Virus record (IMG/VR): IMGVR_UViG_3300043466_000184
Coordinates: 1-37,179 of that record
DNA length: 37,179 nt
Strand: one strand, 5' to 3'
Source: a virus
Shown here piece by piece: positions 1 to 37,120 of the stretch (its first letter is position 1; each line of letters begins with the position of its first letter). Position numbers and translations under genes: made by a program. The notes under the pieces are model-generated. The model ran no database searches and was not told where the DNA came from. It saw only the letters and a program-made list of their open reading frames with translations.

Positions 1-127
1 CAATGTCAGTAGCGCCTGCCCAAGATTTAGCGTGAGAATCACCCCAAGCAATTGCGTTGTTTGCGCCTTGACCCCAACCTATTGCGTTGTTCGCTGCGCC
101 ATCTCCCCATCCGTTGCTATTTGCCAT
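1..127 (-). CDS. Tail fibre/structural protein, N-terminal part only (cut by window edge)
   Basis: The minus strand encodes 42 residues starting MANSNGWGDGAANNAIGWGQ and then runs off the left edge. It is base-for-base the same as the first 127 bases of the complete gene at 32903-33784. If base 1 is joined to base 33657 the gene is completed, so this is the other end of a circular map rather than a truncated gene. It follows the connector gene at 209-709. See the complete copy for product details. Confidence 0.85.
   Translation of the reverse strand, partial: MANSNGWGDGAANNAIGWGQGANNAIAWGDSHAKSWAGATDI
1..127. repeat. Exact 127-bp direct repeat, copy 1 (terminal overlap of circular map)
   Basis: Bases 1-127 are identical to 33658-33784. 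Identity stops at base 128 (T here, C at 33785), and the flanking sequence is then only homologous. A repeat of exactly 127 bases that begins at the first base of the window matches the overlap left by a k=127 assembler at a circular junction or graph branch. Confidence 0.95.
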
Positions 128-212
128 TTTCTTGTTTCTTTAAGTATGTGATCAGTTTTTCTACGTTTTCCTTTCGGGGTTTGTAGCTTCCTACCTTAGT
201 TCGTTTTTTCAT
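117..212 (-). CDS. Conserved 31-aa basic microprotein between connector and fibre
   Basis: A short ORF, MKKRTKVGSYKPRKENVEKL then about ten more residues ending NGK. Its ATG overlaps the connector stop as ATGA, and its end overlaps the start of the fibre gene. The diverged module at 33774-33872 has a counterpart in the same place that keeps the pattern RTKVG-(S/T)-YKP, EN-(V/I)-EKL and a lysine-rich end, although most of the DNA differs. That conservation argues for real coding. Function is unknown; a small DNA-binding or regulatory peptide, or translational coupling, are possible. Confidence 0.65.
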   Translation of the reverse strand: MKKRTKVGSYKPRKENVEKLITYLKKQENGK

Positions 213-709
213 ATATACCAGCCGGTGTAATTATTCATGCGATCCGGGTACATATCATCGTTAGAGTTATTATTATACTCCGGAAACAGGTTATTGTTAA
301 AACACATATAATTGATAAAACGCTCCGTGTAATGCTGAGCAATTGAGCGTTCCTTTTCAGTTAAGTAATCAACTTCGTTTTTGTCTACGTTTTCGCTATT
401 CTCAGACGAATGTTTATAAACTCCTTTGTTAGCGATTGTATAAGCTGCGAAAGGCAAATATTCAACCATTGCCCAGTGAATCAACATTGGCTTGACGTAT
501 GTGTTTACCAAAGTTAGATAATTGCCTGATAGCGTTCCTGCAATAATATCCGCTTCGATCTTTTCGAGTAACTTAGTACCTAAGTAGTTTTGAATATGAA
601 TATCTTGCGCGATTTTGATAAACTGCACGAATTTATCCACGTCCACGTTACCATTGGTAGCAGTGAACTTCTTTAGATCAGTGTCTGTAATTAATAGTGC
701 CTGCGCCAT
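209..709 (-). CDS. Head-tail connector/adaptor-like protein (DUF6712-like), copy A
   Basis: A 166-aa protein with a helical N-terminal half (LITDTDLKKFTATNGNVD, IAQDIHIQNYLGTKLL) and a C-terminus ending NNYTGWYI. It resembles the DUF6712-type proteins next to portal genes in Bacteroidota phages, which probably complete the head-tail joint; the function is inferred from context. It starts at the base where the portal gene stops (709). By hand count about 138 of 166 residues match the copy at 33869-34369, with changes clustered at the N-terminus and near residues 125-150. The start is supported by the same start in the other copy. Confidence 0.7.
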   Translation of the reverse strand: MAQALLITDTDLKKFTATNGNVDVDKFVQFIKIAQDIHIQNYLGTKLLEKIEADIIAGTLSGNYLTLVNTYVKPMLIHWAMVEYLPFAAYTIANKGVYKHSSENSENVDKNEVDYLTEKERSIAQHYTERFINYMCFNNNLFPEYNNNSNDDMYPDRMNNYTGWYI

Positions 710-2505
710 TATTTTACGTCTTTAGGTAAGTTAGGGTTATTAGGCGAAAAGCCTTTCAATGGAAGGTTATTTGGGTAAATAGAAACCTCAAACGGGTTAG
801 TAACTTTGTAGCCTTTAATCTCGGCTGCTCGGGTACCTACCTGCTCAAACTTTCTATCTTTCCCTTTGATGTTGCGCATAAAAGTAACGCGCTCCCATTT
901 GTGATGGCATCGTGCGCCGCCTTTGTACTTAAAAATATCGTATGTATTGGCGCCACCTTCGCCAAAGCCCGGATTTACCGCGCGCTGGCTCATTGCATCA
1001 ATATCTTCTTTGCGAAATAAACGATCTTGTTTAGCCATCATAGCTTTACAAAAGTCGCGATCCGGAGCTGAGTTACCTGTATATCTGTAACGAACTTTAA
1101 AAAACTTCAAAGAATCTACGCGGCTAACTTCTTTGTCCTGTGATGAGCGAGCCGTTGGGTTTGCTGATCCTGCAGAAACAAATTTATAAATCTTGCTTAA
1201 CAGGCTTTCTGGCTGCATTTCTGCGTCTGCCTTATATAATACCTCATCTAATTCCTGATCTTCGTCTGTAGCCTCGCGAGAATCAATTTCTACCCACTCA
1301 TCTGAAAGGTTAGCGGAATCAACTTCCGAAAGTATAGCTTCAAGTTCTGCGTTATGGCTGCTTAACTCTGTACCGGTTTCCTCCTGTACCTGTTCTTGAG
1401 TCATTGCGTTTTCTAGGTCTGTAAATTCTAAAGGTTGTAAGGTTCTAAAGAATAATTTAACCGTAATTCCGTTGAAATGCAGGATCTCATCAAAAGCTGC
1501 TATTAACTCATCTTGTACCGGACGAACTACCATGTTATCAAACAAGATAGCAGAGTTTTTAAGCTCATCAGCATTGGAGCTGAAACCATTTGTAGAGGCA
1601 ACCCCAAACAACAAAGGAGACGTAACGTTATGGCCTAGCATAATCTTACGCATACATTCCTCAGAAAGATATTCGTAATGCTTAGGAGCATCGTTTAAAG
1701 GAATCGAATCAACGGTTGTTCTTTGCTCTGCGTTGTCGTTATATGAAGTAAGTACCTTTTTGCCTTTAGCGCCTGTAAGCTGGGTTTTTACTTTAGAATC
1801 AATGATACTCATTTGTTCCTCAGTAGGCGTCCCGTTGTTAAAGTTTACAACTAACGTAGGCGAAAAGCCGTTTTGAACGTCGTTGATCAGGTACTGCGCT
1901 ATTTCTTCTTCAAGCAGGCAATACGGAAGCGCTCCTTGGTAGTCTGGATAAGCATAATACTTCATTCCGACGTTGTAAGGCTTAGAATAAAGGATTTCGA
2001 CTAATTCGTTTTTACCTCCGTAACCAAAAGCAGGAATGCGCTTAGGTTCAAATTTCTTTATATCCTGCCAGTTATCTGAATAGTAGTAACCTTCAATATC
2101 TCCTTCTTTGTTGCACTTTTCAGCGCGGAGAAGGTTTACCGGCATATGATAAGCCTTTACTATTTTGCTTTTACTTGCGTTGTAGTGAACTTGGATTGAG
2201 AATTGTCCCAATAGCTTGCGGTCCATAGCGATTTTACGGACGCAATCGTCGTGAAAGAGGGTTTTGACTTGCGCGTATTCATTTGGTTTTCTATCTGCAT
2301 TTAAAACGCCTAAACCACGCCCGTAAATTAGGCGCGTAACGTTATTGATAATTGCTGCGTTGGTTGTGCTGTTATTATAGCGATCAATAAGGAATCCGAA
2401 AAAGTTATTTTCACCTCCAAATTCTACCCAGTTATCACGCTTGCTTTCCGTAATTACAGGCGGTTCGTATTGGCTTAAATTTACAAATTGTATGTTACTA
2501 CTCAT
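709..2505 (-). CDS. Portal protein with C-terminal Cys/His domain, copy A
   Basis: A 598-aa protein. Residues 1 to about 400 look like a phage portal: a short N-terminal arm (SKRDNWVEFGGENNFFGFLI), a mixed core, and the conserved segment YLSEECMRKIMLGHNVTSPL followed by GFSSNADEL. Portals form the dodecameric DNA channel at one capsid vertex. From about residue 472 there is a separate module with FCKAMM, YRKEDI-like FRKEDI, NPGFGEGG and CHH (533-535), suggesting a small metal-binding or MuF-like head domain. The gene overlaps the upstream 109-aa gene as ATGA. The second copy at 34372-36147 is very similar in the core but diverges after about residue 395. Confidence 0.85.
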   Translation of the reverse strand: MSSNIQFVNLSQYEPPVITESKRDNWVEFGGENNFFGFLIDRYNNSTTNAAIINNVTRLIYGRGLGVLNADRKPNEYAQVKTLFHDDCVRKIAMDRKLLGQFSIQVHYNASKSKIVKAYHMPVNLLRAEKCNKEGDIEGYYYSDNWQDIKKFEPKRIPAFGYGGKNELVEILYSKPYNVGMKYYAYPDYQGALPYCLLEEEIAQYLINDVQNGFSPTLVVNFNNGTPTEEQMSIIDSKVKTQLTGAKGKKVLTSYNDNAEQRTTVDSIPLNDAPKHYEYLSEECMRKIMLGHNVTSPLLFGVASTNGFSSNADELKNSAILFDNMVVRPVQDELIAAFDEILHFNGITVKLFFRTLQPLEFTDLENAMTQEQVQEETGTELSSHNAELEAILSEVDSANLSDEWVEIDSREATDEDQELDEVLYKADAEMQPESLLSKIYKFVSAGSANPTARSSQDKEVSRVDSLKFFKVRYRYTGNSAPDRDFCKAMMAKQDRLFRKEDIDAMSQRAVNPGFGEGGANTYDIFKYKGGARCHHKWERVTFMRNIKGKDRKFEQVGTRAAEIKGYKVTNPFEVSIYPNNLPLKGFSPNNPNLPKDVK

Positions 2506-2831
2506 AATACGATAAATTCGTTGTTAGACGTATGCGATACGTACTGCCCTTCGTTGATAGTGTAATTAATTATGCTCTGATCAGTACAATATATCTTGTC
2601 TCTGTATATAATTTCGCTACCTTGTTTTAGGGTTAGCATATAACTACGCGCTTCCTTTAAAGCGAACGCTGCTGTAATAGTATTCGTGTATCCGTAAGCT
2701 GCTGAGCTAACAATCGGAACTGTTATTGTTTCGTTTTCAATTTCGTCCGTAATCAGCATAGTATTATACTGCGATTTTCTCGGGATAAAATTAAACGTTT
2801 GGTTGCTTGTTGACGTGCTTAGTACAATCAT
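2502..2831 (-). CDS. Small structural-module protein of unknown function, copy A
   Basis: A 109-aa beta-rich protein beginning MIVLSTSTSNQTFNFIPR, with a conserved core IIYRDKIYCTDQSIINYTIN and a short hydrophobic end. It sits between the tube-like gene (behind a terminator) and the portal, and its stop overlaps the portal start. The copy at 36140-36469 keeps the IPR, D-KI(Y/F)CTDQ and NTITA motifs but little else. Such genes are regular in Bacteroidota phage head modules. I do not recognise a function; a minor virion or assembly protein is plausible. Confidence 0.6.
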   Translation of the reverse strand: MIVLSTSTSNQTFNFIPRKSQYNTMLITDEIENETITVPIVSSAAYGYTNTITAAFALKEARSYMLTLKQGSEIIYRDKIYCTDQSIINYTINEGQYVSHTSNNEFIVL

Positions 2832-2868
2832 ACTTCAATAACTTAAAACAACGGATTTTGTTGCAAAT

Positions 2869-2896
2869 AAAAAAGCCACCCCGTAAGAGATGGCTT
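2869..2896 (-). terminator. Rho-independent terminator after the 180-aa gene (copy A)
   Basis: On the minus strand a hairpin AAGCCA...TGGCTT is followed directly by a T run. It lies 22 bases past the stop of the gene at 2918-3460 and just before the 109-aa gene. A hairpin of different sequence lies in the same place in the second copy (36509-36533), so the position is conserved. Confidence 0.75.
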
Positions 2897-2917
2897 CAAT
2901 TTGTAGTAGGTTATTGA

Positions 2918-3460
2918 CTAGTTGCTATCAATAGTAGCTCCACCGAAAGCAGTAGCTAAACCAGATTCTGTAGTTACATCAATAAAATTGGCGAGCAGTT
3001 TTTCTTGCCCAACCATGGTAAAAGTGTAACCGTTGAGGTCTCCCATGGCCGTGCCATTTGATACGTTTGAAGTTGTTACCTCTAAACCGTGTTCAAGGCC
3101 AGCAAAGAAGAAAGAACCGTTGCGAGATTTTACAACAACGTGCGGACGTCCGTAAGCCAAAAGTTTTGCAGTTTTATGCGTTGCAATATCTTGGTTTTTC
3201 AAAGTGAACGTTAAAGTTTGCTCAGCAAAGGTAGTTCCGTTTTCGCGGCTTGATGTCAAAACCTGATCAAAAGAGTTTGTGCCTTTCAATTCAAATTTGT
3301 AAAGTGTAGCAACACCTGCAACTGAATCAATAACATCTGTATTGGTACCGTCGTAAGTAATTCCTGTATAGTCGCCGTAGTTAACAAAGTAGATTGCATC
3401 AATACCGCCTACTGCTGTCTTACATACTTCCAAACGACCGTTAGCTAAATCACAGCTCAT
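2918..3460 (-). CDS. Abundant structural protein, possibly tail tube, copy A
   Basis: A 180-aa protein starting MSCDLANGRLEVCKTAVGGI, with a central segment (SSRENGTTFAEQTLTFTLKN, then KLLAYGRPHVVVKSRNGSFF) predicted to be beta-rich. It lies directly after the major capsid gene and has its own terminator on both sides, an arrangement typical of highly expressed virion genes. Size, beta content and position fit a tail-tube or major tail protein, but no diagnostic motif is visible. The second copy at 36557-37120 (187 aa) is clearly homologous, with an insertion near residues 30-40. An alternative is a second capsid or decoration protein. Confidence 0.6.
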   Translation of the reverse strand: MSCDLANGRLEVCKTAVGGIDAIYFVNYGDYTGITYDGTNTDVIDSVAGVATLYKFELKGTNSFDQVLTSSRENGTTFAEQTLTFTLKNQDIATHKTAKLLAYGRPHVVVKSRNGSFFFAGLEHGLEVTTSNVSNGTAMGDLNGYTFTMVGQEKLLANFIDVTTESGLATAFGGATIDSN

Positions 3461-6700: not shown

Positions 6701-8578
6701 TTATAACGTTGCGTTTTTAATACGGTTCCTATCTAACGCCTGAGCAGAAGTTACCTCACCGCTTACAACATACGCCTGAATTGGTTGCTGCTGAATTTGC
6801 GCTAATTGATTCATGCCAGAGTTTCCTACAACGTTGAAAGATGGAGACATAACACCGCCTCCGCCTCCAGATGGAGCAGTTACATCTAAGTTTCCGTTTG
6901 AACCGCCTCCATCAAATTGTTGTTTCGCAATATTTGCAATTTGCAATGCTGCAAAACCACCTGCAATACTCGCTGCGATAGATTTTAAAACAACCCCTCC
7001 TTTTGTGTCTGCAAACGTAGATAAAACAGCGTTGTAACCGTCCATTGTAGCAGATGCAATATTGGCAGCCTTTTTAATATTAAACGCTCGTTTTTGGCGT
7101 TTCTTATCTTCGCCTGCATTCATTTCAGCAATACTAGCAATAAGGTTTAAACCTTGTATTGATAGTTCAACTGATGTTTTTAAATTCTCTTTAAACTTGC
7201 GTTGTTTTTCTGCTTCTGCTTCTTCTTCTAATTTTATTCTTGCTGAAGTTGCATCGTAAAGTTGCTGCTGAACACTTGCGTGAGCATCAACTATTGCCTG
7301 ATTATCTTTTTCTATTTCGGCAATTTCTTCTGCGGCCCTTTCTCTGCTTTTCTTGTAAAATTCTTCGTCGTACCAATTTTGTTCTAAAACTGCCTCATCA
7401 AATGCCTGTACAGAAGGATCAATAAAGAAAGTTTTAATATCGTCTTTGACTTTTTTAGCGACTTCTTTTCCGGGTTTCCCAATTTCAGCTAAAGCTATTT
7501 TAAATCCTGCTGCTTCGTTTTTTAGTTGGGCTAATTTAGCCTTAGTTTCTTCAATGGTTTTATCGGCTTCTGCTGCAGTTTCTTCAGGGTCAAAAATTAA
7601 ATTCGTAATAGATTTATTAAATCCTTTTTCTAAATTGAAATCTTTGCCCAATGCTGATCCAACGGTATCTACCGTCTTTAACAATAATTGTAATGGAGCA
7701 GTCAAGAACTTTAAAATACCTTCTAGTATTTCCCTGTTCCTTCTCGCAGCCATTACCTGAGCTTTCTTTGTAGATTCTTGTTGAATCAACTGCGCTTCAG
7801 TTGCCTTAATTACTGCGTCAATTTGTTTGGATTTTATTTTTAAAATATCCTCCTCAGATTTACCTTGAAGTTTTAAAATATTATCCTGACCAGAAATAGC
7901 ATCGTATTTAGCTTGTTGAGCTAATACGTTTGCGTCCGTCTTTGCGTTGAGTCTGCTTTGTTCTTCGCTTACTCCGCTAACTGCAGCTTTGATATCGTCC
8001 CAATAAGTAACTATGGTACCTAAGGCAATTACAAGCAAACCAATACCGCTTGCACCAATTGCTCCTTTCAAAGCTAGCCCGAAGGCTTTTATAGAAGGTA
8101 TAGCTTCGCGGAAACCTTTGACACCTTCCGCAATAGCCATTGCTGACTGCACTTTCAATAATGCTTCCTCTACTTGCTCAGATTCCGCGCCAAAAGCGCC
8201 CATAGCGCCCTGTACAAGTTGGAAACCTGCTGTAGCTCCGCCAAGCGCACCGCCTAATTTTTGAGACATTGTGCTGGCCGCAGCATCAACCGCCATATCC
8301 GTTTGGATTTGAACTTTACGGTATTGGCCTACAGTTGTTAAAAGGTCTTTATATTCTTGCGATGCTGTTTGTCCTGCGTTGGCTAATTCATACAACCTAT
8401 CTTCAGCTTCGCCCATACGGGTTGTAAGCGGCTGCAGTTCTTCGCCATATCTTTCCGCAAAACTTGCTGCTGTATCAAATTGATCTCCGGCTTTTTTGGT
8501 TGCCTGCGTGAGATCGTCCATTGAATTAATGGCCTGCTGCGCGTCTACATCTATTTTTATAGTTTTAGTTTCTGCCAT
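6701..8578 (-). CDS. Tail tape measure protein
   Basis: A 625-aa Ala/Lys/Glu-rich protein. It has an N-terminal coiled coil (about 1-110) and a hydrophobic patch GASGIGLLVIALGTIVTYWD near residues 175-200 followed by DDIKAAVSG, a common tape-measure signature. A long helical centre (about 200-510) leads to an Ala/Gly-rich hydrophobic segment and a Gly/Gln-rich end. The length sets tail length; at the usual 0.15 nm per residue this suggests a tail of about 90-95 nm. The start overlaps the 53-aa gene before it. Confidence 0.8.
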   Translation of the reverse strand: MAETKTIKIDVDAQQAINSMDDLTQATKKAGDQFDTAASFAERYGEELQPLTTRMGEAEDRLYELANAGQTASQEYKDLLTTVGQYRKVQIQTDMAVDAAASTMSQKLGGALGGATAGFQLVQGAMGAFGAESEQVEEALLKVQSAMAIAEGVKGFREAIPSIKAFGLALKGAIGASGIGLLVIALGTIVTYWDDIKAAVSGVSEEQSRLNAKTDANVLAQQAKYDAISGQDNILKLQGKSEEDILKIKSKQIDAVIKATEAQLIQQESTKKAQVMAARRNREILEGILKFLTAPLQLLLKTVDTVGSALGKDFNLEKGFNKSITNLIFDPEETAAEADKTIEETKAKLAQLKNEAAGFKIALAEIGKPGKEVAKKVKDDIKTFFIDPSVQAFDEAVLEQNWYDEEFYKKSRERAAEEIAEIEKDNQAIVDAHASVQQQLYDATSARIKLEEEAEAEKQRKFKENLKTSVELSIQGLNLIASIAEMNAGEDKKRQKRAFNIKKAANIASATMDGYNAVLSTFADTKGGVVLKSIAASIAGGFAALQIANIAKQQFDGGGSNGNLDVTAPSGGGGGVMSPSFNVVGNSGMNQLAQIQQQPIQAYVVSGEVTSAQALDRNRIKNATL

Positions 8579-11002: not shown

Positions 11003-12051
11003 TACACTACTGAATTAATAACATCGTAAGCGTATTCAAACTCTAGTTGGTAGTTAATCAGCTTAGTGTTTATGCTTTTGAATAACTCCGTGTTTTTGGT
11101 GTTTAGTTTAGCAGGTTTTTTATTAATCAAAATACGTTCCGATAACATCAACTGCTGAATGACCTCTTTAAAACTTTCGCTTACCCAATCCGTATTTACT
11201 CGAATCATCTTCTTTCCGTTGGCATTAAAGACCGCTCTTTGACCTTCCAAAGTTGAGTAATTAGGGTAACGAGTTTGCATTAAATTATATTCCGTGTTTT
11301 CAATCGCTAAGCTTTCGTAGCTGGCTTTAAAGAACCACTCGCGTTGCCAAGCTCCAAACTTATTCACAAAGTCAACTTGAACCGGCGTATATTTGCATTC
11401 CTGTTTTGGCGAAAATGTAGCCGTAAATAATACCGTAGCGCTTCCGTCAATGATTTCTAATTTATTCCCTTCTGCTCCATAGGTTGAGTATACTCTGGGA
11501 ATATCTCGCCATACGTTATTTGTAAGCCCTACAGTTTGCGTTGATCCTGAAACTAAGTTTGTATATTTTACTGAGTTTCCGCTGCCTGTGTAAACAGTTA
11601 ACCAACCATACTCGCCGCTTAAATCATAGTTGTAAGTATAAGTTCCTGATGTAAGCAGATAGTTGCCCAGCGCAGGGTTATATCCTTCTTCATAGTATCC
11701 GTATCCATCTACGCCAAAATGCGTTTGCGTAGAACCAACCTGAACAAAAGACGTAGTAACCTTTTTGAATAGCTTTAAACCTACATTGCACCATTGGGTA
11801 GAAGGTGTAGCCGTAATAATAGTTGTAATTGACTGCAACGCATCGTGATCAATGTACTCACGTAGATAAGGCGAAATATCGTAATACGTAGCAGGATTGT
11901 TTGACGATGGTATTTTTTTGCTTAATGTATAAGCAGGTGAAGCAGGCATAGAGCCAGTACCATTCCAAAGGAATATCTGCAACTTAGTCTCTATCTGACC
12001 TGTTTCGTTAATCGTTACTATGTACGGATTCCGTGCGTTAATTATTGCCAT
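11002..12051 (-). CDS. Tail protein of unknown exact role
   Basis: A 349-aa beta-rich protein starting MAIINARNPYIVTINETGQI, with YYDISPYLREYIDHDALQSI near residues 57-76 and Tyr-rich sequence through the middle. It is one of a conserved pair with the 759-aa protein (TAATG overlap). It is probably a tail-tip or fibre-attachment component. No enzymatic motif is visible. Confidence 0.55.
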   Translation of the reverse strand: MAIINARNPYIVTINETGQIETKLQIFLWNGTGSMPASPAYTLSKKIPSSNNPATYYDISPYLREYIDHDALQSITTIITATPSTQWCNVGLKLFKKVTTSFVQVGSTQTHFGVDGYGYYEEGYNPALGNYLLTSGTYTYNYDLSGEYGWLTVYTGSGNSVKYTNLVSGSTQTVGLTNNVWRDIPRVYSTYGAEGNKLEIIDGSATVLFTATFSPKQECKYTPVQVDFVNKFGAWQREWFFKASYESLAIENTEYNLMQTRYPNYSTLEGQRAVFNANGKKMIRVNTDWVSESFKEVIQQLMLSERILINKKPAKLNTKNTELFKSINTKLINYQLEFEYAYDVINSVV

Positions 12052-12590
12052 TATTTCTTAAGTATATTGTCTATTTGTTGATCAAATATTTTTTCGACAT
12101 CCAGAGCGAAAGATTGTACTAGCTCCTCCGGAAGGTTTTTGTATGCCGCTTCAAAAGGTTTAGTAAAAAACATACTTGGCCGGATCCCTTTATTGTAAAT
12201 TCCGCGAGTGATCAGAAAAGCAGTTGATTCGTAGCTCAGGAACTTACCGGTCTTTTTATCCTTGAATTGAAAACGGCGCTTTCGTACCCATTCTTTAATT
12301 CCTTGTGTTAACCCTCCTTTTGGGCCGGTACCTTTACCAAATTTAAACGGCGAGTTAGGAGCTTTTGCAGAACTAGTTTTACCTTTTACTCCTAAATCCT
12401 GAAACGCTCCGTAATCCTCCATATAGAACTGCAGCGATAAACTATTAGGCATTGCCTTTACATCTCCTTTAATGGAGTTATATAGCTTCTTAGATACGTT
12501 CTTTCGTCCGTTGGTTAAATTGCGCTTAGAAACGCTCACAACGTGATTTCTGAATCTTTCAAGCGCCTTCTGAACTTCCGCTTTCTGCAT
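12051..12590 (-). CDS. HK97-gp10-like tail completion / neck protein
   Basis: A 179-aa basic protein. N-terminal helix LERFRNHVVSVSKRNLTNGR, a centre with YMEDYGAFQDLGVKG, then a Gly/Lys-rich loop and the segment RGIYNKGIRPSMFFTKPFE. The EDYGAFQDLGVKG and RPSMFFTKPF motifs are typical of the HK97 gp10-like (minor tail/tail completion) family, which links the tail to the head connector. Its start overlaps the preceding 49-aa gene by 32 bases. Confidence 0.65.
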   Translation of the reverse strand: MQKAEVQKALERFRNHVVSVSKRNLTNGRKNVSKKLYNSIKGDVKAMPNSLSLQFYMEDYGAFQDLGVKGKTSSAKAPNSPFKFGKGTGPKGGLTQGIKEWVRKRRFQFKDKKTGKFLSYESTAFLITRGIYNKGIRPSMFFTKPFEAAYKNLPEELVQSFALDVEKIFDQQIDNILKK

Positions 12591-12991: not shown

Positions 12992-14503
12992 TTAAACTAT
13001 TTTTAATGTTCCTGCATCGTTCCATATATCGCCTGCTGAAAGACCTGCGCTTGAGGTTGGTAAGCCTACTACTCTAAGTTTTGATGCGCCTGCTGTCGCA
13101 GTTCCGATAAGCACGTTACCTCCTAATGTAATTCGCATTTTCTCAACGGCATTGGTATCAAATATTATGTTGTTAGCTGCACCTATATAAGAAGATGTTC
13201 CATTCATATAAGAATTTCCATTACTCTCTTGCAGAAATCCAAAATTAGTAGGCGCATTATGCCCTGTATGACCAAATCTTGCAAAATTTCCTGAAGTTGC
13301 CCAAGTGCCAACCAATCCATTTCCTGCCGTTACGGAAGTAACCCTCGCAGTCCCGTTAACGTCAAGTTTAAAGCCTGCGTCTGTTAGTGTATTTATTAAG
13401 ACGTTTCCAGTAGAGGCTACTAATCGCATTCGCTCGGTTGATAAATCAGCGTCAGCATTACCAGAATAAAAACTAATATGCGCATTTGCGCCATTGCTTG
13501 TTCTTAAACCAATTCCACCAATACCACCAGATAAATTAGTTTGTGCAGACCTATAAGTTCCATAGCTAAATGTTGAACCCGTTGCTAAAAATGCACCTTG
13601 TCCCGTTCCATCTATATCTCGAAAACTTATGATATTGGCATTTGTTGGGTTGCTGCTTAATCTAACTATATTATTACCATTTGTAGAAATATGTAATCTA
13701 TCTAAAGGAGTAGCCGTACCAATCCCTAACCTTGCATTTGTGTTGTCCCAAAACAAGTTAGCATTGTTTTGAGTAACTAAACCACTTGCACCCATAAAAG
13801 GTATTGAGCCAGTTGATAAATTGACATTTAGGTTAGTTACCCTCGCAGTACCATTGACGTCTAAACGGAAGCCTGCATCGGTTGTTGTGTTTATTAGGAC
13901 GTTGCCTCCCGAAGAAATACGCATTCTTTCAATTCCGTTATTTGTACCAGCCGCAGTCCAAAAACGAATACCACTATTACCACCACTTGCAAATGTAGAT
14001 GCCAAATTTAAACCTACTGGACCTTGATAATCTATGATATAAGATGCGCCTGTTTGGTATTGGTTCGCATTATCGTTAACACGACCTGAGCCATAAAGTA
14101 TTGAATTTCCAATTGCATTACTACTGAACAAAGTTGACGTAATAACAGCCGATGAGCCAGTGCTATTATTTGTTATGCTTAAAGCAGTGGCTGCATTTTG
14201 ATTAGCAATTAAGCTAAATGCTTTGGTTGAATCATCATAAGCCAAAGACGAACTCTGCTGCAACACATTCCCCGTACCTTGAAACAATACTCTTCCTATC
14301 GTACCCGAAGATATCGGTGTAGTGCCTATGGTTAAGCTTGTTGCTGCGCTTGCAGATATTTCTACATATGTTGAGCCATCCCAACGATACGTCTTGTTGG
14401 TGTCCTCTGCTATGTAAATTGTTTTTACTGCGCCTGAGGCAGGGAATGCAGCTAAATTAGCGAAGGTTCTTACTTGTGATGGTACGTTTATATTTACTGC
14501 CAT
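12992..14503 (-). CDS. Tail fibre with repeated phage-fibre modules
   Basis: A 503-aa Ser/Thr/Gly/Asn-rich protein. The N-terminus (MAVNINVPSQVRTFANLAAF, then IYIAEDTNKTYRWDG) is a virion-attachment type seen in fibres. Three copies of a module with consensus E(R/K)MR(I/L)...GNVLI follow, at about 193, 362 and 465; the first two continue into DAGF(R/K)LDVNGTARVT. A copy of LGIGTATPLDRLHI is also present. These modules are typical of trimeric beta-helical fibres that bind host surface polymers. The C-terminus is GLPTSSAGLSAGDIW and a short end. The repeated modules are also visible in the DNA (around 13340-13440 and 13845-13940), allowing recombination. Confidence 0.75.
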   Translation of the reverse strand: MAVNINVPSQVRTFANLAAFPASGAVKTIYIAEDTNKTYRWDGSTYVEISASAATSLTIGTTPISSGTIGRVLFQGTGNVLQQSSSLAYDDSTKAFSLIANQNAATALSITNNSTGSSAVITSTLFSSNAIGNSILYGSGRVNDNANQYQTGASYIIDYQGPVGLNLASTFASGGNSGIRFWTAAGTNNGIERMRISSGGNVLINTTTDAGFRLDVNGTARVTNLNVNLSTGSIPFMGASGLVTQNNANLFWDNTNARLGIGTATPLDRLHISTNGNNIVRLSSNPTNANIISFRDIDGTGQGAFLATGSTFSYGTYRSAQTNLSGGIGGIGLRTSNGANAHISFYSGNADADLSTERMRLVASTGNVLINTLTDAGFKLDVNGTARVTSVTAGNGLVGTWATSGNFARFGHTGHNAPTNFGFLQESNGNSYMNGTSSYIGAANNIIFDTNAVEKMRITLGGNVLIGTATAGASKLRVVGLPTSSAGLSAGDIWNDAGTLKIV

Positions 14504-15141
14504 ATCAAATTAATAGTTTGTGTGCTTAATGTTGGGTAAGTATTAGAGGCTACTTGGGTTCCGTCTATTTGTACGTTGAAAGTTGTGTCAGGTAAAGTCA
14601 ATACTGCTCCGCTTGCTACGGTTGTTGTATAACTCTGGTCTGAGTTCGTTACGGTTGCAGGTTGACAAAATGGTATATAACCGTCCGTATCGCAAACGCT
14701 CATCTCATTTGGTACCGTAACGTCAAAAGTCATAGCCCAGCCTGCGAGGTTATTCTCAAAGCGCTCAGCAAAAGGCTCCAGCGTTGCGTTTTCTTCTACC
14801 TGTACTTTCTGATCCCAAATATATCCGGACTTCATCAGTTTATAAGCTCTGATTAAAACGTCGTGCATTGCGTTTAAAGCATCCGTTTCGTTGTCCATAC
14901 CGTAGAATAGGTTGGTATCGTTTTCCTTTGTTATGTCAACTATATCCATAGCCATAATAGTGATATTGTAACGCACTACGAACTCCTCCGTAATTGTGTT
15001 ATTGACCATTATGTGAACTAACGGAAATATCGTCTTTTTGTCCAGATCAACTCCAAAGATATCACCCTGCGATATTTGGTTGACTATCGGATCTCCGCTA
15101 AAATGCAGCCGTAAGGTTTCTAATGTTTGGTAGTAGTTCAT
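14494..15141 (-). CDS. Tail protein (tail terminator/minor tail-like)
   Basis: A 215-aa protein starting MNYYQTLETLRLHFSGDPIV. Residues 30-135 are alpha/beta with a hydrophobic strand VRYNITIMAMDIVDITKEND and AMHDVLIRAYKLMK, and the C-terminus looks like a small beta domain. Size and place (after the chaperone-like frameshift gene and before the fibre) fit a tail-terminator or joining protein. The overlap with the fibre gene is 10 bases. Moderate confidence that it is a tail component, low on which. Confidence 0.5.
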   Translation of the reverse strand: MNYYQTLETLRLHFSGDPIVNQISQGDIFGVDLDKKTIFPLVHIMVNNTITEEFVVRYNITIMAMDIVDITKENDTNLFYGMDNETDALNAMHDVLIRAYKLMKSGYIWDQKVQVEENATLEPFAERFENNLAGWAMTFDVTVPNEMSVCDTDGYIPFCQPATVTNSDQSYTTTVASGAVLTLPDTTFNVQIDGTQVASNTYPTLSTQTINLIWQ

Positions 15142-15413
15142 CGTCTTAGTTGGCGTTCAAAGATTCTTTTTTCGATTTCGTTTTTTTGGTGCTCAAAGGT
15201 GAGATACGTGAGACATTTAAGCAACCCGAGCTTGGTAACTTCGTCGAACTTTGTAACGTCTCCCTTAGCAAGGCCATAAATTGATTGATACCACCCCCAT
15301 TGTTTTGCAAATTGAGCTGTTTCGCTAAATTCGTTGATATGTTCGGGTCCTTCTTTATCTGCTTCTCCAAATAGTTCAGGGTAGCCTTTAGTAATTCGCT
15401 GCTTAAATTGTAA
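15138..15413 (-). CDS. -1 frame C-terminal extension of the chaperone-like gene (frameshift isoform)
   Basis: From the U9 run the -1 frame stays open for 91 codons and stops 8 bases beyond the zero-frame stop. Joined to residues 1-163 it makes a 254-aa protein. The extension reads as an ordinary, well-composed protein: KQRITKGYPELFGEADKEGP, AKQWGWYQSIYGLAKGDVTK, LTYLTFEHQKNEIEKRIFER. There is no ATG in this frame near the slippery run, only a TTG at 15437, so expression through ribosomal (or transcriptional) slippage is the simplest explanation. The whole stretch is coded in two frames. Confidence 0.6.
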   Translation of the reverse strand, partial: LQFKQRITKGYPELFGEADKEGPEHINEFSETAQFAKQWGWYQSIYGLAKGDVTKFDEVTKLGLLKCLTYLTFEHQKNEIEKRIFERQLRR

Positions 15414-15901
15414 AAAAAAACCGATGCTGCAATACAAACATCTAAAGGAGCATACTGCATCAAATCTTGGTATTCTTTTGTACCGGTGTATTCGTGTATC
15501 TCGTACTTGTCTTTTATTCGTTTTTTGATAGGCCTGTACATAACTGCCATTGCCTTATTAAAACTATCCCAGCTCTGCAAATGGTTTTCTAAATCTACAT
15601 ACTCACCAAAACTGATTTCCTCTAAGTTCGGAATAAAACCAAACTCAATACCTTCAATTTTAAACGTCTGTTGAAATTTAGGCTTCTGATCAAACAATTC
15701 CGTAAAGTGCGCAACCATTTCATTAAGTGAAGTAAGTTTTATTTTAGCTACATCAATCAATCGGATTCCGCAAAAAATTTCAATCATTTTCTGGGCAATA
15801 AATTCCTCATCGTTAGATCCTTTCTGAACGTTCAAAAAGTCAACGTAATGCTTTAACGGAATTTCGTTTAATGAAGTAGGTACCTTTACTTGGATTTCCA
15901 T
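15146..15901 (-). CDS. Tail assembly chaperone-like protein, zero-frame product
   Basis: A 251-aa protein. Residues 1 to about 160 are shared by both frameshift isoforms: MEIQVKVPTSLNEIPLKHYV, FCGIRLIDVAKIKLTSLNEM, FGFIPNLEEISFGEYVDLEN. Codons 161-163 are GTT TTT TTT, forming part of a U9 run. The zero-frame end (YNLSSELLKATLNYLEKQIK, NNGGGINQFMALLRETLQSS) is 88 residues and ends basic and Ser/Lys-rich. Lambda G/GT-type chaperones make two isoforms by -1 shift before tape measure assembly. Here the tape measure gene is 6.5 kb downstream, so the name is an inference from the frameshift architecture and tail-block position. Confidence 0.6.
   Translation of the reverse strand: MEIQVKVPTSLNEIPLKHYVDFLNVQKGSNDEEFIAQKMIEIFCGIRLIDVAKIKLTSLNEMVAHFTELFDQKPKFQQTFKIEGIEFGFIPNLEEISFGEYVDLENHLQSWDSFNKAMAVMYRPIKKRIKDKYEIHEYTGTKEYQDLMQYAPLDVCIAASVFFYNLSSELLKATLNYLEKQIKKDPNISTNLAKQLNLQNNGGGINQFMALLRETLQSSTKLPSSGCLNVSRISPLSTKKTKSKKESLNAN
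15412..15421 (-). other. U9 slippery site (putative programmed -1 frameshift)
   Basis: The minus strand reads G followed by nine T, then ACAA. Zero frame: GTT TTT TTT TAC. Slipping back one base gives GTT TTT TTT TTA and enters the long open -1 frame. Homopolymeric U runs support both ribosomal slippage and transcript slippage. Confidence 0.6.
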
Positions 15902-15912
15902 ATCTGTATAAC

Positions 15913-16080
15913 TTATTTTTTTGTTAGTTGTTGCACGTGGTTATATGCTTGCCTTAGCATAGTCAAATGTACGCGCATTTTCTCAGGGTTGTTAAAGATT
16001 ATTTTAATTCGTCTTCCTGTATGCTGGTGTATATACTGCTCTACCAAATAGCACATTGCTTCGGTGTAGTTCTCTGACAT
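15913..16080 (-). CDS. 55-aa basic protein after large terminase
   Basis: MSENYTEAMCYLVEQYIHQH, then RRIKIIFNNPEKMRVHLTML and an end HVQQLTKK. Its ATG overlaps the TerL stop as TAATG, so it is probably translated by coupling. Basic and helical. No known family; packaging or tail-assembly accessory by position. Confidence 0.55.
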   Translation of the reverse strand: MSENYTEAMCYLVEQYIHQHTGRRIKIIFNNPEKMRVHLTMLRQAYNHVQQLTKK

Positions 16081-17240
16081 TAGCGAATGTTATAGTTACC
16101 GTAGTTTTTCTTTAAGCCGAGCGTTTCCATCTCGTGGTATCTAAGCGCATCAATGCCGTGATCCAATCCGACTGCAGGATTTCTACCTCTGTTGCCTGAT
16201 CTGTCAACATCCCAGCAGTAGGCTCTAAGCTCTTTGATTAGGTTTGTACTTTGCTTGGTTACTAAATACTCCTGCTGCTGCATAACATCTATTCCGTAGT
16301 TAATTGAATCCTTACCTTTCGTGACGCCTTTAATCGTCTTTCCGTAGCGTTTAATATCGTCAATTGATTTCGGCTCTGAGCTATCCGCATAAATAACAAC
16401 GCCGGACGGTAGTACCTTTGCTATGTCTGAATTTAGCATCCCTGTACGGTAAACAAGTTCGTTTACAATTCGCTTGCCGTTCCAATTATAAATCTCTATC
16501 GCTGCAGTTGGATCGTTAGTATATCCAAAGTCCAAACCTATACCTACCAATCTGGCATCTTCCGGCACCTTGTCAATCTCCTTCCAGTTCTCAAAGATTA
16601 CGCCCTCAAGCATTCCGACTTCGCCTAAACCATAAACTCGCCACCAATTTGCCCAGTAGTTAGACGTTGTAGCTTTGTCACGATTCTTCTCAATTTGTGT
16701 GACAATACTCTGATCTAAAGCCTCGTTGTCTTTGTACGTTAATATTATGAAATCCGCATCAGGTTCGTGTTTTAGTTCCTTATGTACCCAGAACTCATTT
16801 GCTGGGTTGAAGTCTAAATAGATTTCGCGCTTAGTACGGATTGAAAGCTCATTGTAAGATTCAAACGTAATATTGTTACACTCGTTTATATACAGAACGT
16901 CGCGCCTTGCTCCTCTGAGCTTGCTTGAGTCATCTGCCGAAAAGAACTCAATGTAAGATCCGTTTTTAAACGTGTAGGTTAACAGGGATTTGTTGAACTG
17001 CGATTCTACATATCGGTTAGTCCAGCGCATAATTTTCAAGAAATCTTTAAGGGCCCCGCGACGCAAATGCGGTATTGATTCAGCAACTACGCTAATCTCT
17101 ACGTTAGGTTGTTTAATTGCTCGGTCTATAAGTATTGGCAATATACCGAAGGTCTTGCCTGCTGAGGTTCCTCCCTGTATAATCTTTATCCGTTTTTTTA
17201 ACGAAAGTATTTTGTTAATTGACGTCGTTCTCGTAAACAT
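16080..17240 (-). CDS. terL: Terminase large subunit
   Basis: A 386-aa packaging motor, PBSX-like. ATPase: Walker A GGTSAGKT at 23-30, Walker B DVLYINE at 114-120, coupling motif YLDFNPANEFW from 141. The C-terminal RNase H-fold nuclease has LDFGYTNDP with D237, IYADSSEP with D286, and GLDHGIDALRY with D360/D364. It cuts concatemers and pumps DNA through the portal. Length is slightly short for the family (usually 400-450) but all motifs are present. The start overlaps the end of the 80-aa gene by 26 bases. It is separated from its portal gene by the whole tail and head block, an unusual order. Confidence 0.9.
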   Translation of the reverse strand: MFTRTTSINKILSLKKRIKIIQGGTSAGKTFGILPILIDRAIKQPNVEISVVAESIPHLRRGALKDFLKIMRWTNRYVESQFNKSLLTYTFKNGSYIEFFSADDSSKLRGARRDVLYINECNNITFESYNELSIRTKREIYLDFNPANEFWVHKELKHEPDADFIILTYKDNEALDQSIVTQIEKNRDKATTSNYWANWWRVYGLGEVGMLEGVIFENWKEIDKVPEDARLVGIGLDFGYTNDPTAAIEIYNWNGKRIVNELVYRTGMLNSDIAKVLPSGVVIYADSSEPKSIDDIKRYGKTIKGVTKGKDSINYGIDVMQQQEYLVTKQSTNLIKELRAYCWDVDRSGNRGRNPAVGLDHGIDALRYHEMETLGLKKNYGNYNIR

Positions 17241-17788: not shown

Positions 17789-18844
17789 TTATTTTAATTC
17801 AAATGATGCGGTTATTTTATTTGAAATTGTTTTGCCCATTTTATTTTTATATCCTCTAATTCTGCCGTAATGATGACAATTCCATTTATCTGATATTTTC
17901 AATGCATTAATTAAACTTGGTGAAGTTGTATTAATTGTATACCTCCAATTATCATTTTTATAAATTTTACCAATTTCATTTAATAAACGAACACCTATTC
18001 CTACACCTTGATAATCAGGTAAAATAACTAATCTATGTACTCTTTTTTGACCTTTCATCCCGCTTGGTTGTGCTATTACACTAATAAATCCTGCTATCTC
18101 ATCATTGACTGTTGCTATAAATACATTAGAAGCGTTGTTATGTGAATGGCTTAAATAGTGGTGCTTAGCAAACATTTTCCAGATGCTTTTATCTCCGTAA
18201 TTGAATATTTCAAATTTGATATCTGGTCTATTTTTTTTTTGCCCTTCAAAACTTTGAAAGGTCATCGTATCGGTATTAAATACCCAATCAGGCAGTAGCC
18301 AATCCTGTACGTCAAAATGACAAGTAACTGCTATAAATTTTTTATCCGTCTTCCTGATCGCTTTCTGCATAGCAAAGGAACCAATCTGCGCTACGTTTCT
18401 ATCTACTACGCTTGTGAACTCATCAAATACAAATAGTTCGTTTTTTTCTAATATAGCACGAGCTAAATCTACTCGCATCTTTTGTCCGTTACTAAGTACA
18501 GAATACGGTTTTAACCAACTCGGTGGACTTGAAAAACCTACTGAATTGAAAGCTGCAGTAATTTCTTCTACGCTACACTCTTTTGGCATATCGTCTAAAA
18601 CAGTTTCAGCAGTATATTCATAAGAAGTTATGTAAGCATCTTCAAATAGTTGTTTAGCTATTGTAGTCTTTCCAGTTCCGCTTTTTCCTACGATTAAACC
18701 TACTTGCCACTGATCAGGTATAGCAATATCACCTTTGAAGTGTTCGACTACGTTTTCAGATTGTAAATCAAACTTACCAATAACAGAAGCTACCCTAAAC
18801 GTTTTAGTTGGCTTTACTTCTTTTATAATGTCAAAAGTCGGCAT
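17789..18844 (-). CDS. ABC-type ATPase fused to GNAT acyltransferase
   Basis: A 351-aa fusion. ABC ATPase, about 1-200: Walker A GKSGTGKTT (53-61), signature LSNGQKMRVDLARAIL (117-132), Walker B LFVFDEFTSVVD (137-148), switch His in VTCHFD (H176). No membrane segments, so not a transporter. GNAT domain, about 209-351: HHYLSHSHNNASNVFIATVN, then HRLVILPDYQGVGIG with the acyl-CoA-binding QGVGIG (279-284). The linker FEGQKKNRP is coded by an A10 run followed by TAG in the -1 frame. It overlaps the ParB-like gene before it by 22 bases. The pairing with ParB-like genes next to terminase is known in phages, but the substrate is unknown; DNA acylation (Mom-like) is one idea, inferred only. Confidence 0.75.
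   Translation of the reverse strand: MPTFDIIKEVKPTKTFRVASVIGKFDLQSENVVEHFKGDIAIPDQWQVGLIVGKSGTGKTTIAKQLFEDAYITSYEYTAETVLDDMPKECSVEEITAAFNSVGFSSPPSWLKPYSVLSNGQKMRVDLARAILEKNELFVFDEFTSVVDRNVAQIGSFAMQKAIRKTDKKFIAVTCHFDVQDWLLPDWVFNTDTMTFQSFEGQKKNRPDIKFEIFNYGDKSIWKMFAKHHYLSHSHNNASNVFIATVNDEIAGFISVIAQPSGMKGQKRVHRLVILPDYQGVGIGVRLLNEIGKIYKNDNWRYTINTTSPSLINALKISDKWNCHHYGRIRGYKNKMGKTISNKITASFELK
18228..18241 (-). other. A10 slippery run at ABC/GNAT domain boundary with immediate -1 stop
   Basis: The minus strand reads C, ten A, then TAG A. Zero frame: CAA AAA AAA AAT AGA (Q202 K K N R). A -1 slip gives AAA TAG, ending the protein at about 205 residues, right after the ATPase domain. The layout resembles dnaX, where slippage on an A-rich run yields a shorter isoform. 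Confidence 0.45.
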
Positions 18845-32903: not shown

Positions 32904-33784
32904 TATACTTGTCTTGAAAGTGCGGTTTGGTATGCTTGAACTCGGGTGTATAGGTTAGCTGCTTCGGTGTCTGTTAGGCCGTCGCCGATGCTTGAGAATG
33001 CGGTTTGATATGAATTGTAAAAACCTTGTGAAACTCCATCTTCATTTCTTGCCCCAATATATACACTTGAATTTGGCATTGCAGTTATTGAAGTAGTATT
33101 AGAGGCAATATTTGATGTGTTTTTAAATACTTTAAACGCATTAGTTGCAATTCGTGTTGCAGTAAATAAACCTTGAGTATTAGTTGCTGTATATGTAGCA
33201 GTTGATGTAGCTTGACCGATGCAACCATTTGCTACAGTGTAGTTGTGTTGAAATAAAGTTGAATTATTAACAGTATAACTTCCATCTAATTTGAAATTAA
33301 CCAAATCATTTGTGCGGTTATATTTAGAGAAGTGAGCAGAACTTGTAGATAAAGACGAACTAGGCACAAGTTTCGTATCAGCATATCCATTAGTTCCATT
33401 AGGAGTAGCACCATTACTTGAATGCGTCCATCCTCCGTTGAATACTAATCTGAAAGCTGCATCTAAATCACGAGGGTCTTTAAGGTTGTATTTGTGAGTT
33501 GATGCAGTTCCACCAACAAACGGATAGATGGCTTTCATTTTAGTCCAAATTCCGTCAGTCTTCATGCCTTCAACCAAAGTGTTGATTGCGTTAATCTGAA
33601 TAGGGTCAGTTATAGCAGCAGCAGTAATGAACGCCTGAGCGTCTGCATCAATACCTACAATGTCAGTAGCGCCTGCCCAAGATTTAGCGTGAGAATCACC
33701 CCAAGCAATTGCGTTGTTTGCGCCTTGACCCCAACCTATTGCGTTGTTCGCTGCGCCATCTCCCCATCCGTTGCTATTTGCCAT
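32903..33784 (-). CDS. Tail fibre/structural protein with GWG N-terminal repeats (complete copy)
   Basis: A 293-aa protein. The first 37 residues hold imperfect tandem GWGxGA-NNAI repeats (MANSNGWGDGAANNAIGWGQ). The next part, about 45-115, is DAQAFITAAAITDPIQINAI and GIWTKMKAIYPFVGGTASTH, then YNLKDPRDLDAAFRLVFNGG. The rest is Thr/Asn/Ser-rich beta sequence of the sort that forms concanavalin-like or fibre domains, ending LYTRVQAYQTALSRQV. This type is common in Bacteroidota phages as an exposed virion protein, likely the host-contacting one. It starts after the connector copy in both modules. Confidence 0.7.
   Translation of the reverse strand: MANSNGWGDGAANNAIGWGQGANNAIAWGDSHAKSWAGATDIVGIDADAQAFITAAAITDPIQINAINTLVEGMKTDGIWTKMKAIYPFVGGTASTHKYNLKDPRDLDAAFRLVFNGGWTHSSNGATPNGTNGYADTKLVPSSSLSTSSAHFSKYNRTNDLVNFKLDGSYTVNNSTLFQHNYTVANGCIGQATSTATYTATNTQGLFTATRIATNAFKVFKNTSNIASNTTSITAMPNSSVYIGARNEDGVSQGFYNSYQTAFSSIGDGLTDTEAANLYTRVQAYQTALSRQV
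33658..33784. repeat. Exact 127-bp direct repeat, copy 2
   Basis: Identical to 1-127. It is followed at 33785 by sequence homologous to, but distinct from, 128 onward. It covers the first 42 codons of the fibre gene. Confidence 0.95.
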
Positions 33785-33872
33785 CTTTTATAAGTTTAGT
33801 TAGAAAAACACGGAGTTTCTCAATGTTTTCTTCTTTTGGTTTGTAAGTTCCTACCTTAGTTCGTGTTTTCAT
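33774..33872 (-). CDS. 32-aa basic microprotein, copy B
   Basis: MKTRTKVGTYKPKEENIEKL then about ten residues ending DGK. Same place and same start/stop overlaps as the 31-aa gene at 117-212, while most of the DNA differs, which supports real coding. Function unknown. Confidence 0.65.
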   Translation of the reverse strand: MKTRTKVGTYKPKEENIEKLRVFLTKLIKDGK

Positions 33873-34369
33873 ATGTACCACCCGGTGTAATTATTTGCTG
33901 TATCAGGGTACATATCCCCGTTAGAGTTTGTAGTGTACTCAGGAAACAAGTCATTTCTAAATACAATGTAATCAATGAAACGCTCCGTGTAGTGCTGCGC
34001 AATCTGACGTTCTTTCTCAATCAAGAAATCTACTTCGTTTTTCTCTACGTTTTCAGAGTTCTCAGACGAATGTTTATAGACACCTTTGTTAGCGATTGTG
34101 TAAGCTGCGAAAGGTAAGTATTCAACCATCGCCCAATGAATCAGCATAGGCTTTACATACGTCTCAACTAAGTTTTCGTAGTTACCGGTAAGCGTACCTG
34201 CGATAATATCAGCCTGTATCTTCTGAAGTAACTTAGTGCCTAAGTAGTTTTGAATGTGAATGTCCTGAGCGATTTTAATGAACTGAATGAACTTGTCAGT
34301 ATCTACGTTGCCATTCACCGCAGTAAACCTCACCAAATCGTCTCGTGTTATAAGTAGTGCAGTTGCCAT
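33869..34369 (-). CDS. Head-tail connector/adaptor-like protein (DUF6712-like), copy B
   Basis: A 166-aa homologue of 209-709 (about 138 identical residues), MATALLITRDDLVRFTAVNG, with the same middle (YVKPMLIHWAMVEYLPFAAY) and end (NNYTGWYI). Changes lie in surface-like positions. It has two bases between its start and the portal stop, unlike copy A, where they overlap by one. Confidence 0.7.
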   Translation of the reverse strand: MATALLITRDDLVRFTAVNGNVDTDKFIQFIKIAQDIHIQNYLGTKLLQKIQADIIAGTLTGNYENLVETYVKPMLIHWAMVEYLPFAAYTIANKGVYKHSSENSENVEKNEVDFLIEKERQIAQHYTERFIDYIVFRNDLFPEYTTNSNGDMYPDTANNYTGWYI

Positions 34370-34371
34370 TA

Positions 34372-36147: not shown

Positions 36148-36469
36148 AAACTATGAACGTATTTGTGGTGGTGTTAGATGTATACTCTCCGTTGTTTACG
36201 GAAAATGAAACGATGTTTTGGTCAGTACAAAAGATTCTATCCTTGTAAACGATGTCCGTGTTTTTGTACAATACCAAGTCATAAAAATGACCTTCAATTA
36301 AATCAAATTCTGCGGTGATTGTGTTAACGTAGTTTCCTGACGTTTGTGATGTGATAGCTATTGTAGCCGGTACGTTTGTTTGGTCATCAGTCAAAACCAT
36401 TGAGGTAGGTGTATCTCTCGGGATAAAAGAAAACGTCTGAGCTGATGTAGATGTGGTTAGTACAATCAT
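36140..36469 (-). CDS. Small structural-module protein, copy B
   Basis: A 109-aa homologue of 2502-2831, MIVLTTSTSAQTFSFIPRDT, with conserved KDRIFCTDQNIVSFSVNNGE. It diverges much more than the connector does, mostly in the first half. Function unknown. Confidence 0.6.
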   Translation of the reverse strand: MIVLTTSTSAQTFSFIPRDTPTSMVLTDDQTNVPATIAITSQTSGNYVNTITAEFDLIEGHFYDLVLYKNTDIVYKDRIFCTDQNIVSFSVNNGEYTSNTTTNTFIVYE

Positions 36470-36508
36470 ATTAAATTAACTAACAGCAATGTATTTTGTT
36501 TTAAAAGC

Positions 36509-36533
36509 AAAAAGGGCAGCCAAAGCCACCCTT
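36509..36533 (-). terminator. Rho-independent terminator, copy B
   Basis: Minus-strand stem AAGGGTGGC/GCTGCCCTT (two G-U pairs) followed by TTTTTGC. Same place as the hairpin at 2869-2896. Confidence 0.7.
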
Positions 36534-36556
36534 CTCACACGCTATGAAGAAAACGA

Positions 36557-37120
36557 TTAAGCAGTTACAATAGTAGTTGTTGCACCAAAGACATCACCTG
36601 CTGAACCTGTAAGACCTGCCTCAGATGTGCAGTCAAGAAGATTAGCAAGCAAAGTTTCTTGAGCTACGAAAGTCAAAGTGTAACCATTAAGGTCGCCCAT
36701 TGCAGTACCATTTGACACGTTTGCAGTAGTCAACTCGGCACCATGCTCGAGACCCATAAGGAAGAATTGGTTGTTGCGGTTGCGAACTACAATTTGTGGA
36801 CGTCCGTAAGCTAACAATTTAACCGACTTGTGTGTAGTAGCATCTTGCTTTTTCAAAGTCATTGTTAAAGTTTGCTCAACGAATGTAGTTCCGTTCTCAC
36901 GGGAAGAGGTTACAACTTGCTCAAAAGAGTTTGTTCCTTTGAGTTCGTATTTGTATAGGGAAGTTACGTTGGCGATAGTGTCGATAGTATCAGTACCGGC
37001 TACATAGGCAACGTCTACTTCAGGGTTAAAGTCACCATAGTTAATGAAGTATACCGTTTCAATACCACCAACGGCATCTTTACATACTTCTAAGCGACCA
37101 TTTGCTAAATCACAAGACAT
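36557..37120 (-). CDS. Abundant structural protein, possibly tail tube, copy B
   Basis: A 187-aa homologue of 2918-3460, starting MSCDLANGRLEVCKDAVGGI. It shares the core (SSRENGTTFVEQTLTMTLKK, KLLAYGRPQIVVRNRNNQFF) with an insertion near residue 32 (NPEVDVAYVAGTDT). Bounded by terminators on both sides. Confidence 0.6.
   Translation of the reverse strand: MSCDLANGRLEVCKDAVGGIETVYFINYGDFNPEVDVAYVAGTDTIDTIANVTSLYKYELKGTNSFEQVVTSSRENGTTFVEQTLTMTLKKQDATTHKSVKLLAYGRPQIVVRNRNNQFFLMGLEHGAELTTANVSNGTAMGDLNGYTLTFVAQETLLANLLDCTSEAGLTGSAGDVFGATTTIVTA

Follow-up and report, generated by a model that had tools for sequence, protein, structure and literature searches.

Gene layout and neighborhood of the T-run gene

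The window analyzed here is the whole 37,179-nt stretch of the IMG/VR virus record IMGVR_UViG_3300043466_000184. On its minus strand lies a gene starting with the ATG at position 15901, whose zero-frame ORF (15146–15901), kept in approximately 460 loci, has a predicted product of 251 aa (isoform A). The first 163 residues (15413–15901, minus strand) make up the N-terminal domain, phrog_32199, shared by both predicted products. The domain runs into exactly nine T on the sense strand (15412–15420), whereby codons 161–164 read GTT TTT TTT TAC. From the TTA at 15413, the −1 frame stays open for 91 residues, LQFKQRITKGYPELF...RQLRR, with a conserved WGWY...LA.GD motif, and closes with a stop whose last base, 15138, lies 8 nt past the end of the zero-frame stop (tail and stop at 15138–15413, minus strand); the corresponding predicted −1 product, isoform B, has 254 aa. 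The 88-codon zero-frame tail (15146–15411, minus strand) lies over the −1 tail, making this region dual-coded. The original prediction of a U9 run at codons 161–164, a 91-codon −1 frame and two isoforms of about 250 aa agreed with the sequence in each of these points once its coordinates were taken on the minus strand. The third (+1) frame is closed by a TAA two codons past the run (15403–15405, minus strand). A +1-frame stop 0–4 codons from the run was present in 251 of the 251 alleles checked, which the codons of the other frames may alone explain.

The module immediately upstream is that of the terminase large subunit (TerL; 16080–17240), separated from the T-run gene by a small ORF of about 55 aa (15913–16080). 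Immediately downstream is a 215-aa gene of phrog_30964 (14494–15141), the ATG of which (15141–15139) overlaps the TGA stop of the −1 frame (15140–15138). Further on follow a phrog_29822 protein (12051–12590), the P12024L relative of which also matches phrog_5 (tail completion or Neck1), and the tape measure protein (phrog_24676; 6701–8578), about 6.5 kb downstream of the T-run gene and not adjacent to it. All of these genes are on the minus strand. The order is conserved as TerL, the ORF of about 55 aa, the T-run gene, phrog_30964, a neck/tail-completion-like gene, phrog_35281, phrog_38559 and then the tape measure gene, the last of which lies 5–6.5 kb downstream of the T-run gene across the relatives. 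A protein encoded close upstream of the terminase (17789–18844; phrog_11143, E 9e-98) combines an ABC-type ATPase region with a GNAT acetyltransferase domain at its C-terminus. The two ends of the window (1–3454 and 33658–37114) are divergent copies of one block, with 58% amino acid identity between the portal genes (709–2505 and 34372–36147), 83% between the 166-aa genes and 68% between the 180- and 187-aa genes. Either the portal block was duplicated and its copies diverged, or two strains were combined when a circular genome was assembled.

Conservation of the T run among homologues

The first IMG/VR scan recovered 80 relatives with 63–99% identity. Nearly all intact copies had exactly T9 in the same codon register with both frames open, and in most of them the −1 stop was located about 8 nt beyond the zero-frame stop. 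Later scans with diverse alignments brought the collection to about 460 loci. With the N-domain and the −1 tail located by profile HMMs, both segments were recognizable in 461 loci, and in 459 of these they stood in different frames (by −1) across a run of T9 (384 loci) or T10 (75 loci). Conservation of the U run in aligned homologues, which had been proposed as a check, was thereby confirmed. As exceptions, one extra T in locus L084 (around 951–966) fuses the N-domain and the −1 tail into one frame, which is either a sequencing or assembly indel or a natural fused allele, and locus L022 has a nonsense codon in the N-domain; the latter was unscored in the HMM-based count, and its run was T9 by a separate check. 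Loci fetched with a query located upstream of the run, and hence unselected for it, had both the run and the second frame in 84 of 84 cases.

Many of the loci were near-identical or repeats of one contig, and removal of identical sequences around the run left 368 distinct alleles. The run consisted of 9 or 10 T in all of them and was never shorter. This length was kept across three registers, namely TTT TTT TTT CTG, NTT TTT TTT TAY and AGT TTT TTT TTG: in the first of them a 3′ T has been lost and an extra 5′ T gained, and in the third the opposite has occurred. T runs of at least nine were otherwise infrequent in this DNA, with about 28 others across 1.74 Mb.

The Nonlabens phages P12024L/S have a distant relative (26% identity) beside their terminase, with T9 in the same register. 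Four more relatives were present on genome-bin contigs assigned to Bacteroidetes, Winogradskyella, Flavobacterium and, in one case, labeled Epsilonproteobacteria; they were detected with an alignment query, and a single-sequence query of the same contigs found none. Since these bins are mainly Bacteroidota, the hosts are most likely members of this phylum (Flavobacteria and relatives), and the virus is siphophage-like. A 161-nt piece of the gene of locus L225 matched two plasmids of about 67 kb, CP045836.1 (Lysinibacillus pakistanensis) and NZ_CP040811.1 (Escherichia fergusonii), with about 70% identity and in both cases within hypothetical genes at approximately 30.6–31.1 kb. These matches may be due to chance in AT-rich DNA or to a phage-derived gene.

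Selection in both reading frames

In the window's clade, differences at the three codon positions amounted to 0.20/0.14/0.52 upstream of the run and 0.14/0.27/0.22 downstream of it (zero-frame positions). The difference at fourfold sites of the −1 frame in the window's group was 0.201 within the overlap, compared to 0.584 both upstream and in the next gene. The group with zero-frame tails of 55–59 codons offers an internal control for the constraint in the overlap, namely the part of the −1 ORF beyond the zero stop: here the fourfold difference was 0.282 in the overlap and 0.447 in that control part, with 0.608 upstream and 0.600 in the next gene. When the −1 tail was recoded synonymously, the zero frame of the window and seven relatives stayed open in 0–1 of 4000 trials, which corresponds to P ≤ 0.00025 for the open zero frame of each sequence from the window's clade. 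The zero frame remained open in 0.4–6% of the trials for clades with 55–62-codon zero tails and commonly (16–49%) for the P12024L-like group with its zero tail of 16–25 codons. An exchange-matched BLOSUM-type test for conservative residue changes in the zero frame gave no signal, probably due to its low power, as its result is largely set by the type of exchange. The suggested test of purifying selection in both frames otherwise came out positively, with fourfold sites of the −1 frame held down in the overlap and the zero frame open beyond chance, and the claim of about 270 dual-coded nucleotides is well supported by the conserved run and by two frames which are both open and constrained in the homologues.

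At the level of sequence comparison, the gene has one start and an invariant T9–T10 tract, after which both the zero and the −1 frame encode a C-terminus under selection, and it is almost certainly a programmed, functional frame transition. That the gene is decayed, or an artifact of sequencing or assembly, can practically be dismissed. Homopolymers are error-prone and the extra T of L084 does fuse the two frames, but the same run with two open frames was found in about 460 separately assembled contigs, down to about 25% identity, and the isolate genomes of P12024L/S carry T9 as well. Phase variation at the DNA level, whereby replication slippage would alter the T tract and switch the encoded tail, is very improbable: long T tracts mutate easily and L084 is in the fused state, but fused or +1 genomes should then be numerous, whereas 459 of the 461 assemblies are split, and the T10 alleles gain a T without changing the frame relation. 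The absence of an ATG in the −1 frame near the run, as originally claimed, was borne out for the window, which has a TTG about 8 codons upstream of the run, a feature that is not general among the homologues. This TTG and the annotation of P12024L_41 from an internal ATG would agree with an internal start producing the second-frame tail as a separate small protein. This reading, given hardly any probability, was rejected: 94 of 241 homologues lack any ATG, GTG or TTG between the preceding −1 stop and the 25th codon after the run, and 39 of 241 have a −1 stop at most 8 codons ahead of the run, which together confine the frame shift to the run itself.

It is also unlikely, though less remote than the foregoing, that only the −1 fused protein matters and that the zero-frame tail is a tolerated by-product without its own function. 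The −1 tail is better conserved in sequence across most of the overlap, the zero tail in P12024L-like phages is just 16–25 codons long, and the structure models of both the N-domain and the −1 tail (see below) matched several single-ORF viral proteins of 226–267 aa in Foldseek, A0A516L5A8 and A0A6J5N0W0 among them, which suggests that fused, unshifted relatives may exist. However, stops in the zero frame are much scarcer than expected, synonymous positions of the −1 frame are most constrained where the zero ORF overlaps them, and the position of the zero-frame stop is itself conserved in large clades.

Growth of the zero-frame tail

The tree, built from 123 representatives (about 72% identity), was rooted at its midpoint only. 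The zero-frame tail measures 16–25 codons in the P12024L-like phages, which form the outgroup, and 45–48 in the lineages that branch next; in most of the remaining family it usually has 52–71, and within the window's clade its length is 67, 70, 84, 87 and 88 codons. Since these lengths are graded along the tree, the apparent tail swap stands at the far end of a gradual downstream movement of the zero stop, and the almost coinciding stops arose as a derived condition of the window's clade. The original prediction had set a swapped tail against the added tail of G/GT genes. The near-coincident stops are indeed real in the window's clade, but the contrast was overstated, as most zero tails are 45–71 codons long; in most of the family the −1 tail runs well past the zero-frame tail, much like in SPP1 17.5/17.5*. 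The −1 tail, found in all relatives on the tree, is the more conserved and probably the older of the two, and the zero-frame tail would have been lengthened by stepwise loss of stop codons until it spanned the whole −1 tail in the window's clade.

Mechanism of the frame transition

The proposed programmed −1 access to a second C-terminus is well supported, and slippage of the RNA polymerase is at least as likely as ribosomal frameshifting to bring it about. Polymerase slippage is somewhat favored over ribosomal frameshifting, because the runs are always at least nine T long despite register shifts, there is no 3′ RNA structure, and SD-like elements are almost absent. For transcriptional slippage, a homopolymer of about 9 or more A/T with a conserved length is expected, and 9–10 T were found in the 368 alleles. 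Many bacteria avoid A/T runs of about 9 because of polymerase slippage (PMC1088944), and poly(T) makes the E. coli RNA polymerase more prone to slip (PMC6260861). Ribosomal −1 frameshifting usually, although not obligatorily, relies on a stimulator, either a 3′ structure or an SD-like element, and neither was evident here: no consensus pairs were found downstream of the run among the relatives, single-sequence folding was at chance level (mean z = 0.02, n = 24 relatives), and an upstream SD-like motif was absent in 223 of 241 homologues, with a 4–5-nt SD-like match in the other 18.

Classical programmed ribosomal frameshifting, in which ribosomes would slip back one base at U_UUU_UUU and read the −1 tail, is accordingly somewhat less likely, yet a serious competitor. 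The heptamer T_TTT_TTT, which conforms to X_XXY_YYZ, is kept in register in all 368 distinct alleles, ribosomal shifting is the norm among G/GT-type genes (PMC5009743), and SPP1 uses UUUUUUC (PMC6316719). Against it, the ribosome needs only 7 T, whereas the run always has at least 9 and compensates on a change of register; other slippery heptamers, even T TTT TTC, were never seen in the alleles; and the downstream structure or SD-like stimulator is missing.

With polymerase slippage as the mechanism, a fraction of RNA polymerases would stutter on the T tract during transcription. The mRNAs with one extra U (or two fewer) would be read into the −1 tail, those with one U fewer would terminate translation at the nearby stop, and isoforms A (251 aa) and B (254 aa) would come from one gene in a fixed ratio. 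We consider this account as a whole, with both isoforms in an assembly role, reasonably likely.

Structure and putative function

The AlphaFold2 model of the N-domain consists of alpha helices and beta hairpins, with pLDDT mostly 80–93 up to about residue 160. The zero-frame tail was modeled as helical with moderate confidence, its last 30 residues (beyond approximately 220) being of low confidence, and the −1 tail, folded alone, gave a helical domain. Against viral models, Foldseek returned proteins of uncultured Caudovirales, of P12024S and of Flavobacterium phage 6H, along with a weak match (E 0.029) to one protein labeled 'Tail assembly chaperone'. Domain databases gave uncharacterized PHROGs only, with no Pfam or NCBIfam match; matches to Pfam DUF576 and to phrog_166 'tail protein' were too weak and were discarded. 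The zero-frame tail searched alone had no match, nor did sequence and fold searches against the PDB or hhalign against lambda gpG. In phage 6H (L302, 10044–10927), a structurally similar 191-aa gene precedes an unannotated gap that holds an ORF of 105 codons in the −1 frame; there is no evident slip site at this locus, and its TTTTTTC meets a stop at once.

The best guess, made because of the architecture and gene neighborhood, is a role resembling that of a tail assembly chaperone, for which we see roughly even chances. The position typical of G/GT, between the major tail protein and the tape measure, is not that of the T-run gene, which has TerL upstream and phrog_30964 plus the neck gene downstream. 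In such a role, isoforms A and B would act in tail or head–tail assembly, as lambda gpG/gpGT and SPP1 gp17.5/17.5* do; both would bind through their common N-terminal domain, whereas a second partner would be contacted by the C-terminal domain, in which they differ.

Comparison with known systems

A close parallel in layout is SPP1, where the tail chaperones gp17.5 (173 aa) and gp17.5* (297 aa) have 112 residues in common (PMC6316719). As in the window, the −1 change occurs inside the gene at a U-rich site and gives two isoforms with a common N-terminus, and the zero frame has a long continuation, with about 61 dual-coded codons. Unlike the window gene, SPP1 has the heptamer UUUUUUC with a proposed ribosomal mechanism (PMC6316719), its −1 tail is far longer than the zero tail, and the gene adjoins the tape-measure gene; family searches found no sequence similarity between the window gene and gp17.5. 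The tail assembly chaperone pair of lambda, gpG/gpGT, likewise has one start, two products by a −1 shift and a place in the structural gene cluster (PMC5009743). However, the lambda shift lies close to where G ends and equips GT with a long T domain, whereas the zero-frame protein of the window continues for 88 codons; moreover, the gene order differs and there is no profile match.

Concerning the site, the window gene resembles Thermus thermophilus dnaX, Shigella mxiE/spa13 and IS elements, which use transcriptional slippage and have a run of about 9–10 A/T (PMC1088944, PMC5009743, PMC6260861), need no RNA stimulator in the simplest cases and have stops near the run in another frame. As opposed to these cellular, plasmid or IS genes, both frames of the window gene encode selected tails, each about 90 residues long. 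Among phage morphogenesis genes, no case of transcriptional slippage was found in the papers searched, and no earlier description of the T-run gene was found in the open-access journal literature.

The homologous gene by the terminase of the Nonlabens phages P12024L/S (Inhavirus; genes 40–41 and 38–39, respectively) also has a homologous −1 tail. It differs from the window gene in being annotated as two separate hypothetical genes and in having a zero-frame tail of 25 codons. In L081 (14001–14695), P12024L_40 and _41 are likely one frame-transition gene that was mis-split, the second half being listed as a separate family, phrog_38404.

Implications for the phage family

The gene is best placed among the phage morphogenesis genes already known for a programmed frame transition; its new features are the homopolymer site and a C-terminus that is dual-coded to an unusually full extent. 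The results correct the annotation of P12024L/S, and most likely of other relatives, in which the gene was split in two or its second product missed. There is about an even chance that we are dealing with a Bacteroidota phage lineage in which the ratio of a morphogenesis protein's forms is set by polymerase stuttering on T9–T10 instead of ribosomal frameshifting, and in which the overlap of the two frames in the C-terminal third of the gene has grown stepwise to complete double coding. Bacteroidota rarely use Shine–Dalgarno signals (PMC8710568). More than 450 natural sequences now allow the frame-transition site, the run length and the graded dual-coded overlap to be compared. Two questions can thereby be put to the test: has transcriptional slippage taken the place of ribosomal frameshifting in Bacteroidota phages, and by which route does a long overprinted C-terminus originate?
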